A stretch of 64,000 nt of DNA. Origin: Aureliella helgolandensis (GTDB taxonomy: Bacteria; Planctomycetota; Planctomycetia; Pirellulales; Pirellulaceae). A model generated the notes under the pieces. The model was not told where the DNA came from and made no database searches. It saw only the letters and a list, made by a program, of their open reading frames with translations. The stretch covers positions 2,170,001-2,234,000 of the forward strand of contig NZ_CP036298.1 of the NCBI RefSeq assembly GCF_007752135.1. Reading direction: 5' to 3'. The position numbers and the translations under genes are program-made. Below, piece by piece: positions 25,477 to 44,365 of this stretch. Every line of letters begins with the position of its first letter. The stretch's first letter is position 1.

Positions 25477-25782
25477 ACTTCACTCCATTGGGTAAGGGCT
25501 GCACGGCAACTGATACACCTGGTAATCGGTTGCGAAATGATTATTCCAATTATCGACAGGCGTCTTGTCTGATTCTGTGTGCACTCACACATTCAGCCGG
25601 TTCCCAACAGCTGGAATATTAATCCTGCAGGACAGAGGAACTGATTTTACTGCCGACGATGGCTTCCCCATTTTCGAAGCTACCATCGATTGCCAGCACG
25701 CCCGGCAGCCTGGCTTTATTGCCTGTCAGCATGCCGAAACGGCTACTGGCTGGCGGATAGCAGGCTTCGCTGCTCACTGTTC

Positions 25783-25850
25783 ACTGTCACTGTCACTGTC
25801 TCTGTCTCTGTCTCTGTCTCTGTCTCTGTCTCTGTCTCTGTCTCTGTCTC
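25783..25850. repeat. Hexanucleotide microsatellite (CTGTCT)n
   Basis: About nine tandem copies of CTGTCT, preceded by CTGTCA variants, in the 700-base gap between the secreted protein gene and arsR. An open frame through the repeat on either strand would be low complexity (Leu-Ser or Arg-Gln) and is not credible as a gene. The rest of 25477-26111 shows no gene. Confidence 0.85.
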
Positions 25851-26111
25851 GCAGTAATCGTTCCCCTCAGGCACAAGTGGTTCGGCAGACGCACACCAAG
25901 CAAAGAGGGGGGGGCTGCGCGGGCGAGCGTCCGCAAGCCAAAAGGGCAGCTACTCGGTCCATCAGCAATTGCTTGAGCCTCGCAAGCCGGGCAGACTGTG
26001 CATGCGACAGTTAGGTGGACCAAGCTATCTCATTGCCATTGAATAGCGAAACGAAGGCCATTTTTTCAGTAACCTCAAGGGGCACTCAAGCAAAATCGCG
26101 AGATGCGGGCA

Positions 26112-26199: not shown

Positions 26200-26535
26200 A
26201 TGGTTCGAACCAAGGCAGAAGCTCAGAAATGCTGCTCCCCCAGTGAGAAGCTGGCGCTTCCAGATGTCGCTTGGGCTGAGGACATGGCCAAGTTGACTTG
26301 GGCCTTGGCTCATCCGGCGCGAGTGCGGATCGTGCGTTTGCTGCTCAACCGCACCTCGTGCGTCTGCGGTGAGATCGTGGAAGAAATGCCACTGGCTCAA
26401 TCGACGGTTTCCCAACATTTGAAGATCCTCAAGGAGACGGGGTTGGTGCAAGGTGAAATCGACGGCCCCCGCGTTTGCTACTGCATCAACGAAGAGGCGA
26501 TGGCCAAATTGAAGCAGCTAATCGCGGACTTGTAA
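26200..26535 (+). CDS. arsR: ArsR-family arsenite-responsive repressor
   Basis: 111 residues. A winged-helix DNA-binding domain with recognition helix LAQSTVSQHLKILKE occupies about residues 30-100. Cysteines sit in RTSCVCGEIVEE, the position of the As(III)-binding CxC in helix alpha-3 of E. coli ArsR-type sensors; an extra CC pair occurs near residue 11. The family represses the ars operon and releases DNA when it binds arsenite or antimonite. The gene stands first in the arsenic operon and 48 bases downstream of a promoter with a palindrome over the -10 element, which fits autoregulation. The assignment is secure. Confidence 0.93.
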   Translation: MVRTKAEAQKCCSPSEKLALPDVAWAEDMAKLTWALAHPARVRIVRLLLNRTSCVCGEIVEEMPLAQSTVSQHLKILKETGLVQGEIDGPRVCYCINEEAMAKLKQLIADL

Positions 26536-26640: not shown

Positions 26641-27903
26641 ATGAGCAAGCGAATGATGATCGATGATGTGCGAGACCAATACGCCGGCGTCGCCAAAGGC
26701 GCTCTTTCCAACGAGTCAACTGCGGTCAGGTCCATCGCGTCTGCCTTTGGCTATTCACAGGACGAACTGAATCAGTTGCCTGCTGAAGCCAACATGGGAT
26801 TGTCCTGCGGCAACCCGTTGGCGCTAGCCGGTATTCGTGAGGGCGAAGTGGTTGTGGATCTCGGGTGCGGCGGAGGCATGGATGTGTTTCTGGCCGCTCG
26901 AAGTGTGGGCTCAGCGGGGCGCGTTATCGGTATCGACATGACCACCGAGATGCTCGAGCGAGCTCGTGCCGGTCAACAGAAGCTTGGTCTGACGAATGTC
27001 GAGTTCCATCAAAGCACCATCGACAAATTGCCGCTACCTGACAACTCTGTTGACTGCGTGATCAGCAACTGCGTGATCAATCTAGTGTCCGACAAACTGG
27101 CTGTATTTCGCGAGATCTTGCGAGTGCTCAAGCCTGCGGGCCGTGTTGCCCTAAGCGATATCGCACTCAAGCAAGAGCTGCCAAGTGAAGTCAAGCAAAG
27201 TGTTGAGGCCTATGTGGGGTGCATCTCTGGTGCAGTTCTCATCGAAGAATACCGAAGCTTATTAGAGCAAGCTGGTTTTGGCTCTGTTGTCGTAACTGAC
27301 ACCGGAGCGGACTTAAACGCTTATGCAATGGCCAGTGATAGCGGATGTTGCGGTGGTGCGTGCGATTCGGAAGGAAAGTCCTTGCACGACGGTCTCGCGT
27401 CGGTCATGCAATCGTTTGACGCCAACGCTTATGCCGCGAGCGTACGAGTCCATGCGCTGAAGCAGGCATCGACCGGCTCCGTGAATACGATTCCCGTTTT
27501 AAATGTTCAACCGATTTCCAAGGAGAAAACCATGAAGACTGTCCAAGTCTATGACAAACCAATGTGCTGCTCGACCGGCGTTTGTGGCCCAGACGTTGAT
27601 CCCGTTTTGCCAAAGTTTGCAGCGGACCTCGACTGGCTTAAGAACCAAGGCCACAACGTCGAGCGATACAACCTAGCTCAACAGCCGCAAGCCTTCATCG
27701 AGAACAAGGAGATTCACCATCTGCTAAGCACCGCTGGCACCGATTGCTTGCCAGTCGTGGCTGTTGATGGAGAAATCGTCAGCCAAACCGTCTACCCCTC
27801 ACGTGAAGATCTCGCAGGCTGGGTCGCCGGTGTACCCGCGAAACAACTCCTGCCCGTTGCCAAGCCAAGCGGCGGATGCTGTGGCACTAGCGGCTGTTGC
27901 TAG
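26641..27903 (+). CDS. arsM: Arsenite methyltransferase fused to ArsD metallochaperone (ArsM-ArsD)
   Basis: 420 residues with AAAGGAG seven bases before the ATG. Residues 1-260 are ArsM: a SAM-binding motif [11 protein letters not shown] and three conserved arsenic-binding cysteines in LSCGNP, ISNCVIN and VGCISGA. A Cys-rich bridge (GCCGGACD) follows. Residues 298-400 are a complete ArsD with [31 protein letters not shown] and a C-terminal [10 protein letters not shown], the metallochaperone cysteines. ArsM methylates As(III) with SAM; ArsD passes As(III) to ArsA, whose gene is next. The fusion would put both acceptors of arsenite in one chain. An internal AAGGAG and ATG at 27532 may also give free ArsD. 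Confidence 0.93.
27520..27534 (+). promoter_or_regulatory. arsD: Internal ribosome-binding site and start for a free ArsD
   Basis: AAGGAG at 27520-27525 lies seven bases before the in-frame ATG at 27532, exactly where the ArsD domain begins ([13 protein letters not shown]). It is probably the original arsD start, kept after arsM lost its stop codon. It could still give a separate 123-residue ArsD besides the fusion. Confidence 0.7.
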
Positions 27904-27962: not shown

Positions 27963-29744
27963 ATGAAGTTTTTAGACCATCCAACACGTAATCTGTTCTT
28001 CACAGGTAAAGGCGGCGTTGGCAAAACGTCGGTGGCATGTGCGACCGCTGTGAAACTTGCCGATGCTGGTAAGAAGGTCTTGCTTGTCTCGACTGACCCC
28101 GCGTCTAACCTTGATGAAGTGCTGGGCGTCACGCTCGGAAACCATCCGACGGCGATTCCAGCGATGCAGACTCTGTTCGCCATGAATCTCGATCCTGAGA
28201 AGTCGGCGGCCGAGTATCGTGAACGCATGGTTGGCCCCTATCGCGGCTTGTTGCCTGAAGCAGCCGTCAAGAGCATGGAGGAACAGTTCTCGGGATCTTG
28301 CACGCTGGAGATCGCGGCCTTTGACGAATTCTCACGGTTGCTTGGTGATCCAACCGCGACCGCTGAGTTCGATCATGTGATCTTCGATACAGCGCCCACG
28401 GGGCACACGTTGCGATTGCTCACACTGCCATCGGCCTGGGATGGCTTTATGGAACAGAATACGACAGGTACGAGTTGTCTGGGGCCATTAGCTGGTTTGC
28501 AAGCTCAACAGAAACTTTATCAAGAGTCCGTAAAGGCATTGGGCGATGCCTCAGTAACAACGCTCGTACTCGTGGCCCGCGCCGAAGCAAGTGCTCTGCG
28601 CGAAGCAGCGCGGACCAGCGGGGAACTGGCAGAGCTTGGTGTGCGCAATCAACACCTCGTGGTCAACGGTGTGTTCCAAGCAATGGATACCAGTGATCCC
28701 TACGCCGTTGCTTTGCAAGAGCGAGGCACTGTGGCGCTGAGCGGCACTCCGGACAGCCTGAAAGCATTTCCTCAGACGATCGTGCCGCTCAGTCCCGGTG
28801 GGATTCTCGGAATCGAGTCGCTCCGTCGCCTCGGCAACGTCGACTCGACTGCTATTGCAGAACTGGAGGCTGGAGAAGTCGAACCGGTTGAAGGCCTGCC
28901 GATGCTCTCGGAGCTGATCGACGACTTAGTTGCGCCGGGGCACGGCGTCATTCTCGCCATGGGTAAAGGTGGTGTTGGCAAGACCACCGTCGCGGCAGCC
29001 ATCGCGGTTGCAATCGCTCAGCGTGGTTACGAAGTGCACCTATCCACCACCGACCCAGCAGCACATATCGCTGCTGCGATGAACGACGAAAGCTTGCCGA
29101 CCCTGTCGGTCAGTCGCATCGATCCTGAAGCGGAGACCGCCAAGTATTCTGCGCAAGTTCTCGGGAAAGCCGGCGCAAACCTTGACGCTCAAGGCAAAGC
29201 ACTGTTGGAAGAGGATCTCCGATCGCCTTGCACCGAAGAGATTGCCGTCTTTCGTGCTTTTGCTGATGCGGTCGCCGCTGGAACGAACAAGTTTGTGGTG
29301 CTTGACACAGCGCCCACTGGGCACACGGTCCTGTTGCTCGATTCGGCACTTGCCTACCATCGCGAGGTGACACGTCAGTCGAGCGAAATGCCAGAAGCCG
29401 TAGAAAACCTGCTTCCGCGGTTGCGCGATCCCGACTTTACACGCGTGTTGATCGTGACGCTTCCCGAAGCGACTCCCGTGCATGAAGCGGCCGCTTTACA
29501 GCGGGATCTACGACGAGCCGAGATCGAGCCCTATGCATGGGTTATCAATCAAGTCCTCAGTCCCTTACCCATTACTGATCCGCTGATGAAACAGCGTCAA
29601 TCGCATGAACAGAAGTACTTACGCGAAGTCAAAGAAGTACTGGCCAGCCGTGTGGCGATCATCCCTTGGCAGCTTGAACCTCCCACCGGTCTTCAATCCC
29701 TGAGCCGGCTGACTCACTCCGGACTAACAGCTTCGGGATCCTAA
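27963..29744 (+). CDS. arsA: Arsenical pump-driving ATPase
   Basis: 593 residues, the size of the two-domain ArsA. Walker A motifs GKGGVGKTS (residues 14-22) and GKGGVGKTT (about 335) start the two halves. Each half has a DTAPTGHT signature. All three metalloid-binding cysteines of E. coli ArsA have counterparts: GSCTLEIAAF, TSCLGPLAG and SPCTEEIAVF. The enzyme hydrolyses ATP when loaded with As(III) by ArsD and energises an ArsB or Acr3 pump. No pump gene is in this window. AAGGA precedes the ATG, and the gene lies 59 bases after the ArsM-ArsD fusion. Confidence 0.97.
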   Translation: MKFLDHPTRNLFFTGKGGVGKTSVACATAVKLADAGKKVLLVSTDPASNLDEVLGVTLGNHPTAIPAMQTLFAMNLDPEKSAAEYRERMVGPYRGLLPEAAVKSMEEQFSGSCTLEIAAFDEFSRLLGDPTATAEFDHVIFDTAPTGHTLRLLTLPSAWDGFMEQNTTGTSCLGPLAGLQAQQKLYQESVKALGDASVTTLVLVARAEASALREAARTSGELAELGVRNQHLVVNGVFQAMDTSDPYAVALQERGTVALSGTPDSLKAFPQTIVPLSPGGILGIESLRRLGNVDSTAIAELEAGEVEPVEGLPMLSELIDDLVAPGHGVILAMGKGGVGKTTVAAAIAVAIAQRGYEVHLSTTDPAAHIAAAMNDESLPTLSVSRIDPEAETAKYSAQVLGKAGANLDAQGKALLEEDLRSPCTEEIAVFRAFADAVAAGTNKFVVLDTAPTGHTVLLLDSALAYHREVTRQSSEMPEAVENLLPRLRDPDFTRVLIVTLPEATPVHEAAALQRDLRRAEIEPYAWVINQVLSPLPITDPLMKQRQSHEQKYLREVKEVLASRVAIIPWQLEPPTGLQSLSRLTHSGLTASGS

Positions 29745-29756
29745 GGAGAGACGAGC

Positions 29757-30011
29757 ATGGCCAAAGTTCAAGTGCTCGGTACGGGCTGCGCGAAATGCGG
29801 CTACCTACTCAAGAATGCACAGGTGGCTGCAAACGAGCGACAGGCTGGCGATGTGGTCGAGAAGCTCGACGACATGCTGCAAGTCCACGAGTTCAACCCG
29901 TCAGCGCTACCCGCTCTGGCGATCGACGGCAAAGTCGTTACTGTGGGAACGCTACCATCACCGTCTGAAATTAGACAGCTTATTGAACAGTCGCAAGAAG
30001 TGGAGGAGTGA
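29757..30011 (+). CDS. Thioredoxin-like small redox protein
   Basis: 84 residues with the compact fold of TM0996/MTH895-type redox-active disulphide proteins. The active site is CAKC (GTGCAKCGYL), and the cis-proline region is SALPALAIDG. AAGGAGAG precedes the ATG, and the gene starts 12 bases after arsA. Similar genes occur in arsenic and permease operons of many bacteria. A role in delivering electrons or handling bound arsenic is plausible but unproven. It is cytoplasmic, with no signal peptide. Confidence 0.85.
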   Translation: MAKVQVLGTGCAKCGYLLKNAQVAANERQAGDVVEKLDDMLQVHEFNPSALPALAIDGKVVTVGTLPSPSEIRQLIEQSQEVEE

Positions 30012-30506: not shown

Positions 30507-31157
30507 ATGACATCGAAGCAAACTGAAGGTAATTCGACTACCTTTTACCCCGAGTTAAAGCGTTACTTGACGGAAGCAATAACTCGTTTCGAGGTGATCC
30601 CTAACGATCGCAAGGGGGAGCTCGCCAAAGTTGCAGACTACGTGCGAGAACGCCTTTCGAAGTCCGAACCAGCTAAGCTGACCTTTATCTGCACACACAA
30701 TTCACGACGTAGCCATCTGTCCCAGATCTGGGCGCAGGTAGCTGCCGAATACTATGGATTGGAGGGTGTTGAGACGTTCTCTGGCGGCACTGAAGCAACG
30801 GCCTTCAACCCGCGGGCTGTCGCCGCCATGCAGCGCTGTGGACTCAAGATCGTGGCGGATGATCCGACCGCGACCAATCCGCGCTACAGCGTCACCACCT
30901 CGGATTCATCCACACCGCAAGTTTGTTTCTCGAAGGCGTATAGCGACCCGCCGAATCCAAGTAAAGGATATTGCGCGGTGATGACTTGTTCGCAGGCCGA
31001 TGACGCTTGTCCGGTTGTAATGGGCTGCGATCTTCGCATGCCGATCCGATATGAAGACCCGAAAGTAGCCGACGATACTGAGTTGGAAGCCCAGCGATAC
31101 GACGAGCGCTCCGCTCAAATCTGTAGCGAAATGCTTTACATGATGTCCCTCGCATAG
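30507..31157 (+). CDS. arsC: Arsenate reductase / low-molecular-weight protein tyrosine phosphatase family
   Basis: 216 residues with AAGGA before the ATG. An N-terminal helical extension (about 50 residues) precedes the phosphatase-type P-loop CTHNSRR (CX5R). More cysteines in the C-terminal half (CSQADDACPVVMGC) could form the shuttle of the thioredoxin-coupled arsenate reductase. Such ArsC enzymes reduce As(V) to As(III), which ArsM and ArsA then use. The family also includes true phosphatases, but the position in the ars operon and the extra cysteines favour arsenate reduction. The gene is last in the operon. Confidence 0.85.
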   Translation: MTSKQTEGNSTTFYPELKRYLTEAITRFEVIPNDRKGELAKVADYVRERLSKSEPAKLTFICTHNSRRSHLSQIWAQVAAEYYGLEGVETFSGGTEATAFNPRAVAAMQRCGLKIVADDPTATNPRYSVTTSDSSTPQVCFSKAYSDPPNPSKGYCAVMTCSQADDACPVVMGCDLRMPIRYEDPKVADDTELEAQRYDERSAQICSEMLYMMSLA

Positions 31158-32663: not shown

Positions 32664-32701
32664 CAAACTTCTGAGCGGATTTTTCCAACGGGGTGGCGAC
32701 G

Positions 32702-33544
32702 ATGTCGACGAAAATTTTGATAACTGCCGGATTGCTTGTGGCTGGACTTCTTTGGGCCGTCGTATCCAATCGGCGCACAATCGCCATCAAACTATATGGT
32801 CCGCCGACGGTAGATTCTGTCGAGGCCTATGGCCCATTGGAAAGCGACTTGACATTCGATCATTCTGTCCTTGATCGGTTGTTGAGCGAATTCGTAGACG
32901 ACGCTGGCTGGGTAGATTACGAGAGTCTAAAGGACCGCCAAGGGGAACTACAGACATATATCGAAACACTGGCCGATGCACCGTTCGATGATCTGGGACG
33001 CAATGAAAAACTGGCTTTGCTGATCAACGGTTACAACGCCTTCACCTTGGAATTGATTCTCGAACACTATCCAGTGGATAGCATTCAAGATATTCCAACT
33101 GCCCAACGTTGGGACGATGCAAGATGGAAGCTGGGCGGTAAGTTGTTGAGTCTCTCGCAAATCGAACATGAACAGATCCGCCCCAAGTTCAAGGAGCCTC
33201 GGGTGCATTTCGCGCTGGTCTGTGCTGCAATCGGTTGTCCACCACTTAGGAGGGAAGCCTATGTCGGATCGCAACTCGAAGAGCAATTGCAGTCTCAGAC
33301 TCAGTATATGCACCAGCACCAAACCTGGTTTCAGTTGGAACCCAGTGCTTCAGCGGTGAAGCTTACGCAGCTCTACAGCTGGTACGGAAACGATTTTGAA
33401 CAAAGTGCGGGTTCGGTGCTTAAGTTCGTCGCCACATGCTCGGTGCCTCTCAAGAGAGAAATGGATAGTGGGAAAAACCTAGGGATAGATTGGCTGGAAT
33501 ACGATTGGACTCTGAACTCATTGAGTAATCGCGGGGCTAGATGA
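32702..33544 (+). CDS. DUF547 protein, membrane-anchored (copy 1)
   Basis: 280 residues; GGGGTGG before the ATG at 32702 favours it over the in-frame GTG at 32693. One N-terminal hydrophobic anchor (ILITAGLLVAGLLWAVV) precedes the DUF547 core: LLSEFVDDAGWVDYESL, KLALLINGYNAFTLELIL, RVHFALVCAAIGCPPLR and a C-terminal FLEYDW-like end (WLEYDWTLN). DUF547 has a Cys in the conserved C..IGCP context and is suspected to have a protease- or transglutaminase-like fold; its role is unknown. A second copy lies at 43514. The stop overlaps the next relic by ATGA. Confidence 0.88.
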   Translation: MSTKILITAGLLVAGLLWAVVSNRRTIAIKLYGPPTVDSVEAYGPLESDLTFDHSVLDRLLSEFVDDAGWVDYESLKDRQGELQTYIETLADAPFDDLGRNEKLALLINGYNAFTLELILEHYPVDSIQDIPTAQRWDDARWKLGGKLLSLSQIEHEQIRPKFKEPRVHFALVCAAIGCPPLRREAYVGSQLEEQLQSQTQYMHQHQTWFQLEPSASAVKLTQLYSWYGNDFEQSAGSVLKFVATCSVPLKREMDSGKNLGIDWLEYDWTLNSLSNRGAR

Positions 33545-43513: not shown

Positions 43514-44365
43514 ATGGAGAATCAAATGGTTAGAACGGATTTTTTTCGGCGAATGACAGTCGGCTGTTTAGTTGGAATCTGCGGCTTGGGGATGATGTCG
43601 TTGCAAGCCGATGCAAAAGATATCCAAATAGGTGTAAACGTGGCTGCTGCACAGCAGTTGCCCTTGAATCGTATTGACCACTCCGCCTGGAACGGATTGC
43701 TGAACAAGTACGTTGACGAGAGCGGGATGGTCCATTATGCAGCCTGGAAGCAGTCCGCCGAGGATCTGCAAACCTTGGACGGGTATCTGCAGTTGCTGTC
43801 GTATTCCAATAGTCAGGGGAGCCGCGAAGAAAAGCTTGCGTTTTGGATCAACGCTTACAATGCGGTAACGATCAAAGGCATTTTGAACGAGTATCCAACA
43901 TCAAGCATTCGAAACCATACCGCAAAGTTGTTTGGATACAACATTTGGAAGAATCTGAAGCTGATCGTGGGCGGCAAGCCAATCTCGCTTGACGACATGG
44001 AGCATCAGGTGCTTCGGAAAATGGGCGAGCCTAGGATTCACTTTGCCATAGTCTGTGCGTCCATCGGTTGTCCGCGCCTGCTCAATGAAGCCTACATTGC
44101 TGAGCGTCTTGATGCGCAGTTGACGCTGAATGCAAAAGCCTTTTTCGCCGACCCGAGTAAGTTTCGTTTCGACGCAACGCGCAGTACGTTTTTTATCTCT
44201 CCCATCCTCGATTGGTTCGGCGAAGACTTCGGCAGCTCTCCTGGAACGCAGCTCCAGAAAATCTCCGGCTGGTTACCAGATATTACATCTCAGCAAGCTG
44301 CGTCTACCGGTAGAGGTAAGATGGCGTTCATGGACTATGACTGGGGGTTAAACGATCGCAAATAG
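43514..44365 (+). CDS. DUF547 protein, exported (copy 2)
   Basis: 283 residues with GAGG five bases before the ATG. A signal peptide (CLVGICGLGMMSLQADA) is followed by the DUF547 core: LLNKYVDESGMVHYAAW, EEKLAFWINAYNAVTIK, RIHFAIVCASIGCPRLLN, and a C-terminal MDYDWGLND. It is about 35-40% similar to copy 1 at 32702 but has a cleavable signal in place of an anchor. DUF547 genes often accompany TVP38/MerA-like pairs and arsenosugar genes, and the gene is divergent from that pair here. Function unproven. Confidence 0.9.
   Translation: MENQMVRTDFFRRMTVGCLVGICGLGMMSLQADAKDIQIGVNVAAAQQLPLNRIDHSAWNGLLNKYVDESGMVHYAAWKQSAEDLQTLDGYLQLLSYSNSQGSREEKLAFWINAYNAVTIKGILNEYPTSSIRNHTAKLFGYNIWKNLKLIVGGKPISLDDMEHQVLRKMGEPRIHFAIVCASIGCPRLLNEAYIAERLDAQLTLNAKAFFADPSKFRFDATRSTFFISPILDWFGEDFGSSPGTQLQKISGWLPDITSQQAASTGRGKMAFMDYDWGLNDRK

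Follow-up and report, generated by a model that had tools for sequence, protein, structure and literature searches.

ArsD is a chaperone for the ArsA ATPase. In the ArsD encoded by arsRDABC operons, residues Cys12, Cys13 and Cys18 are reported to serve transfer to ArsA (PMC12607644), and in an algal ArsM, the arsenic methyltransferase, the reported arsenite-binding cysteines are Cys72, Cys174 and Cys224 (PMC5552862). Fusions between ars proteins are already known. They include ArsN-ArsD and ArsN-ArsC (PMC6205960), ArsR-ArsC and ACR3-ArsC (PMC6205960, PMC6514093), an ArsM-SelD fusion in a protist (PMC5552862), and ArsRM of Brevundimonas sp. M20, an ArsR-methyltransferase fusion reported to be bifunctional (PMC10190100). 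NCBIfam also lists ArsM-AhpD and ArsM-DUF2284 selenoproteins (NF041537 and NF041536), whose names indicate ArsM with an extra C-terminal domain other than ArsD. The gene described here, found in a 64,000-nucleotide stretch of Aureliella helgolandensis DNA (hereafter the window), joins ArsM to ArsD. It is like ArsRM in attaching an arsenic methyltransferase to an ars protein, but the partner is a chaperone rather than a repressor; it is like ArsN-ArsD in attaching ArsD to an ars protein, but the partner is ArsM rather than ArsN. For the ArsN-ArsD and ArsN-ArsC fusions we found no mention of an internal start being retained (PMC6205960). Within the openly accessible literature, where no description of an ArsM-ArsD fusion was found (subscription papers lie mostly beyond that coverage), the pairing appears to be new.

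The fusion gene occupies 26641..27903 on the forward strand, which also carries the arsR, arsA, thioredoxin-like and arsenate-reductase-like genes described below. Its frame runs from an ATG at 26641 to a stop ending at 27903 and encodes 420 residues with no internal stop; no stop separates the ArsM part from the ArsD part, which rules out two overlapping separate genes. The preliminary description had proposed a single 420-residue frame made of ArsM and ArsD, and the open reading frame and its matches to NF008823 and PF06953 bear this out. The ArsM domain (about residues 1-244, 26641..27372) matches NCBIfam NF008823 over residues 9-222 with 277.6 bits against a cut-off of 263. It is followed by a strongly conserved ArsM C-terminal tail (residues 245-274, 27373..27462), likewise kept in unfused relatives (e.g. 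at locus L013), then by a linker (residues 275-297, 27463..27531), and last by an ArsD domain with its own ATG (27532..27903). Pfam PF06953 spans residues 298-420, covering profile positions 1-123 of 123 (E 1.1e-46), and NF033727 gives 130 bits on the ArsD part, where the cut-off is 90.

Both halves have the cysteines known to bind arsenic in their families. In alignment to the solved arsenic methyltransferase (4kw7/4fr0), Cys56, Cys144 and Cys194 fall on the three arsenite-binding cysteines Cys72, Cys174 and Cys224, while Cys44 of the algal enzyme corresponds to Arg30. The protein thus shares with the ArsM family a score above the family cut-off and the three cysteines, and differs from it by Arg30, the conserved tail and a whole added ArsD. 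The ArsD part matches ArsD 3mwh without gaps from Met1 through the cysteines, with Cys309, Cys310 and Cys315 in the places of Cys12, Cys13 and Cys18. Its full-length profile match, this cysteine triad, its C-terminal Cys pairs and the adjoining arsA are all shared with ArsD of arsRDABC operons, from which it differs in extending N-terminally into ArsM. All six cysteines are invariant in the 19 of 21 Pirellulaceae fusions that make up alignment A1 (G241 and G263 are left out). As far as sequence can tell, the fusion is an ArsM plus a complete ArsD, each with its predicted arsenic-binding cysteines.

The gene sits between arsR and arsA. Upstream, arsR (26200..26535) encodes an ArsR/SmtB-type repressor of 111 aa (Pfam HTH_5 PF01022, E 7.1e-14; NCBIfam NF033788, 75.2 bits, cut-off 55). 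Downstream, arsA (27963..29744) encodes a two-domain arsenical pump ATPase of 593 aa (TIGR04291, 787.7 bits, cut-off 650), followed by a small thioredoxin-like protein of the MTH895/ArsE family (29757..30011, 84 aa; TIGR00412, 81 bits, cut-off 62) and a divergent arsenate-reductase-like protein (30507..31157, 216 aa) whose match is weak (NF010053, 41 bits, far under the cut-off of 215).

In-frame ArsM-ArsD fusions occur in 21 of 241 Pirellulaceae genomes and in 9 of 170 Planctomycetaceae genomes; these counts are lower bounds, as scoring in each genome was confined to a few top candidates. (By comparison, 126 of the 241 Pirellulaceae genomes match the window protein at E 1e-30 or better.) The preliminary description had called for a search for other such fusions, and had named a sequencing error hiding a stop, or the lack of any fused homologue, as grounds for dropping the idea. 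A frame common to 30 planctomycete genomes excludes both, and an assembly error with them; at least six of the fusion genomes (G000, the window genome, and G334, G337, G506, G764 and G921) are single-contig assemblies. An even sample of the class has ArsD above the cut-off in 65 of 297 genomes, and in 13 of these the frame reaches at least 413 codons; all 13 are ArsM-ArsD fusions. Two fusions are damaged in the ArsD part, which is frameshifted in G263 and stops early in G241, without the cysteine tail. Three other long ArsD frames (G562, G600 and G132) are not ArsM-ArsD fusions. No fusion was seen on plasmids: among 3019 that match the window protein, none covers at least 80% of its length.

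Outside the planctomycetes, a Verrucomicrobia MAG (genome G969, locus L152) encodes a 490-residue ArsM-ArsD-CMD protein, followed by arsA. The third domain, after ArsD, is of the CMD/AhpD type (L152, 2369-3838). The ATG at the ArsD border is absent, and this ArsD is the only one found in the genome. ArsD lies above the cut-off in 32 of 387 Verrucomicrobiota genomes; 30 ArsD loci were examined, and 29 of them are without the fusion, the other being that of G969. None of the 2276 plasmid records matching the Verrucomicrobia fusion covers at least 80% of it. This fusion looks separate from those of the planctomycetes. Long ArsD frames in four further Verrucomicrobiota genomes (G1055, G1216, G1128 and G1007) are not ArsM-ArsD fusions. 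At two other Verrucomicrobiota loci (L257 and L259), ArsD runs in frame into a segment that starts like a membrane-anchored protein and ends Cys-rich, with a start-like codon internal at the ArsD border, a possible different ArsD fusion.

The linker varies in length and never leaves the frame. Counts for the linker and for the internal start refer to 29 of the 30 planctomycete fusions (G1383, found later, is left out). Across 28 measured rows (the length in G283 being unmeasurable) the linker takes 11 lengths, always a whole number of codons, and all 29 rows keep the frame; read in the other two frames, 26 and 23 of the 29 rows contain stops. Pooled pN/pS, from 11 non-independent pairs drawn from 15 of the 29 genomes, is 0.45 in the linker as against 0.10 in ArsM, 0.08 in the ArsM tail and 0.10 in ArsD, which indicates strong purifying selection on both domains. 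A moderate-quality AlphaFold2 prediction (mean pLDDT 64.4, pTM 0.56) leaves the linker unstructured, with pLDDT under 50 for residues 278-296, and its arrangement of the domains relative to each other is untrustworthy. Unfused ArsM relatives (L013, for example) end near residue 281, and the linker therefore corresponds roughly to the former arsD leader.

The preliminary description had also placed a preserved, independent ArsD start, AAGGAG plus ATG, within 27520-27534. The positions are confirmed: the Shine-Dalgarno-like AAGGAG lies at 27520..27525, followed by an ATG at 27532-27534 in the frame of the fusion; initiation there would yield a product of 123 residues. The motif is predicted to pair with the 16S tail at -8.3 kcal/mol; pairing this strong is predicted at 2.9% of 242 other in-frame ATGs. 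Among the 29 planctomycete fusions 25 keep the internal ATG, 15 of these with GGAG ahead of it, and predicted pairing in the ATG-bearing fusions averages -6.6 kcal/mol vs -2.6 at the 242 comparison ATGs, which lie elsewhere in the same genes (Mann-Whitney p 2.6e-9, a nominal value since the rows are related). Among the 17 Pirellulaceae rows that have the ATG, the motif's first codon ends in G every time, against 45% G in comparable codons. That codon varies among AAG, GAG and CAG, changing the residue, and AGGAG stays constant. Because the third base is always G and the first base varies while AGGAG stays, what is conserved is, by the pattern of codon changes, the DNA motif and not the amino acid.

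The claim of a preserved start holds for only part of the group. The ATG is replaced in four of the 29 fusions, all from Pirellulaceae (G283 AGG, G334 CGC, G326 CAC and G204 CGG), with predicted pairing of -3.0, 1.9, -2.9 and -0.5 kcal/mol, and each of these genomes has a single ArsD. With the ATG gone and no other ArsD found, there and in the Verrucomicrobia fusion, ArsD must come from the fusion. In several other fusions the ATG persists but the Shine-Dalgarno motif is weak or absent: GGAG is missing in 10 of the 25, and G316 and G909 show almost no predicted pairing. A ribosome-binding motif better than those at other in-frame ATGs is thus present in the window gene and wanting in about 10 of 25 relatives, and for this reason some members of the group may carry the start only as a relic in decay. 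Retained together with its Shine-Dalgarno motif in many relatives and lost in four, the independent start is probably optional, giving an ArsD-only product in the window organism and many relatives and gone from some lineages.

In the ArsM tree, 29 planctomycete fusions (those then in hand; matches with stops or short segments are left out of the rows) and six unfused ArsM form one group with support of 98/98. No arsD was seen at any of the loci read for these six, and so no intact neighbouring unfused pair was seen in the clade. The ArsD tree, which has few columns and includes 57 separate-ArsD rows, intermixes fused and separate ArsD. Supported branches force at least 6 changes of the fused label on the ArsM tree and at least 7 on the ArsD tree. 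With several label changes inside the ArsM group and a mixed ArsD tree, the trees fail to show a single origin of the fusion. Since the ArsD of G334 and of G326 belong to another group in the ArsD tree, a separate fusion or an exchange of ArsD is possible in these two genomes. At one locus (L287, G488) an unfused ArsM ends in an ArsD-like GGCCGGxxCC tail, perhaps the remnant of a deleted ArsD, perhaps chance.

Separate arsD genes in turn carry traces of ArsM. ArsM or linker remains lie upstream in 9 of 25 separate arsD loci, hand-picked, mostly for their closeness to the fusions on the ArsD tree, and not drawn at random; a reversed query finds such remains in 1 of 25, and ten shuffles find them in 0 or 1 of 25. 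Six of the nine are clear ArsM coding (G273, G279, G295, G386, the second copy in G387, and G873). The other three (G208, G277 and G380) hold nothing beyond linker or the final ArsM residues and could be an old arsD leader. Two later cases of ArsM or linker remains come from G1396 and G1356. At L073 (G273), ArsM residues 6-59 continue directly into ArsD in one frame, which would fit a deletion of the fusion's middle part. ArsM remains before separate arsD genes, together with the ATG-less fusions, suggest two opposite paths: loss of the internal start in some lineages, and in others loss of ArsM with ArsD surviving.

We read the gene as encoding a fused arsenite-handling protein with an optional ArsD-only product whose start was lost in some lineages, a reading that seems to us probable by a modest measure. 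From the frame, domains and conservation described above, we infer that the fusion is translated and folds. The arsR-arsMD-arsA operon would yield a 420-residue protein in which a short flexible linker joins ArsM to ArsD, and this full-length product is most strongly to be expected where the internal ATG is gone. The ribosome-binding site within the linker, by its conservation, probably gives ArsD alone as well in the window organism and many relatives. The preliminary description had suggested that the fusion could direct arsenite either to methylation or to ArsA. In the hand-off that we propose, arsenite captured by the fused ArsD domain would be kept close to the methyltransferase, and ArsA would be supplied by free ArsD or by the fused domain itself. 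Lineages would then diverge, becoming dependent on the fusion where the internal start is lost and keeping ArsD from that start where the ArsM part is lost. The ATG-bearing fusions that lack GGAG, the label changes on the trees, the three linker-only remains and the poor structure model count against this reading, and if the fusions were recent and repeated, selection would not be needed to explain a kept start.

The fused protein might instead be all that matters, with the internal AAGGAG and ATG as slowly eroding leftovers of a separate arsD. This is an alternative to be taken seriously, if on the unlikely side. It would account for the ATG-less fusions that have no second ArsD and for a graded series of decay, from those four to ATG-bearing rows of weak pairing (G316, G909, G913, G935 and G852). 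Against it, the best-kept rows hold the motif though synonymous sites have nearly saturated (ArsM dS of about 0.5-2.3 in the compared pairs), and the motif stays while its first base alters the residue. The separate arsD genes with arsM remains also speak against leftovers, as they show that ArsD can outlast ArsM by using its own start.

That last point, the repeated loss of the ArsM part, can be turned the other way, together with the strong internal start in 15 of 25 and the loose constraint on the linker. The fusion would then be a tolerated accident, in which the arsM stop was lost, ArsD is made mainly from the internal start, and the joined form lacks any separate function. We consider this quite unlikely: the frame is held through all 11 linker lengths, four lineages depend on the fusion alone, no intact adjoining unfused arsM/arsD pair was seen in the clade (its six unfused ArsM loci being without arsD), and a separate-looking fusion exists in Verrucomicrobia. 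Production of the 420-residue chain followed by cutting in the linker, giving two separate proteins, would suit the variable and predicted unstructured residues 278-296, but the linkers show no conserved cleavage motif, and an internal start would render cutting needless; we regard it as highly improbable.

A more specific and doubtful reading is that ArsD chaperones methylation, its fused domain capturing arsenite for ArsM, so that methylation would outweigh pumping in hosts such as the window organism, and that the internal start meters free ArsD for ArsA. The gene would then switch arsenite between methylation and the ArsA-dependent route. The complete window genome has no match to the TIGR00832 (ACR3) or PF02040 (ArsB) profiles, despite its arsA; with neither acr3 nor arsB detected in the genome, the locus falls outside the arsRDA(B/acr3) efflux operon type. 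One PF03773-type permease is encoded far from the operon. Of 20 fusion genomes examined, 11 have acr3 above the cut-off, and in G063 and G316 it lies close to the operon. Since ACR3 and ArsB are missing from the window genome and ACR3 is nonetheless present in these 11, methylation may be the main arsenic exit in some hosts, though not in all. The conserved covalent link of ArsD to a methylating enzyme suggests a second ArsD client and raises the testable question of a chaperone that feeds arsenic methylation. The natural series, with both starts present, the internal start lost, or ArsM lost, is suited to the study of how fused genes arise, remain adaptable and break up.

Homologs of the arsenate-reductase-like protein are encoded downstream of the fusion in G140, G212, G063, G334 and G316. 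Upstream of arsR in the window, 25565-26014 is an open frame with a long Ser-Leu repeat that amounts to a simple CT-type repeat. Farther downstream, 32693-33544 and 43514-44365 are open frames of similar size, the first encoding a DUF547 protein and the second alike by eye.
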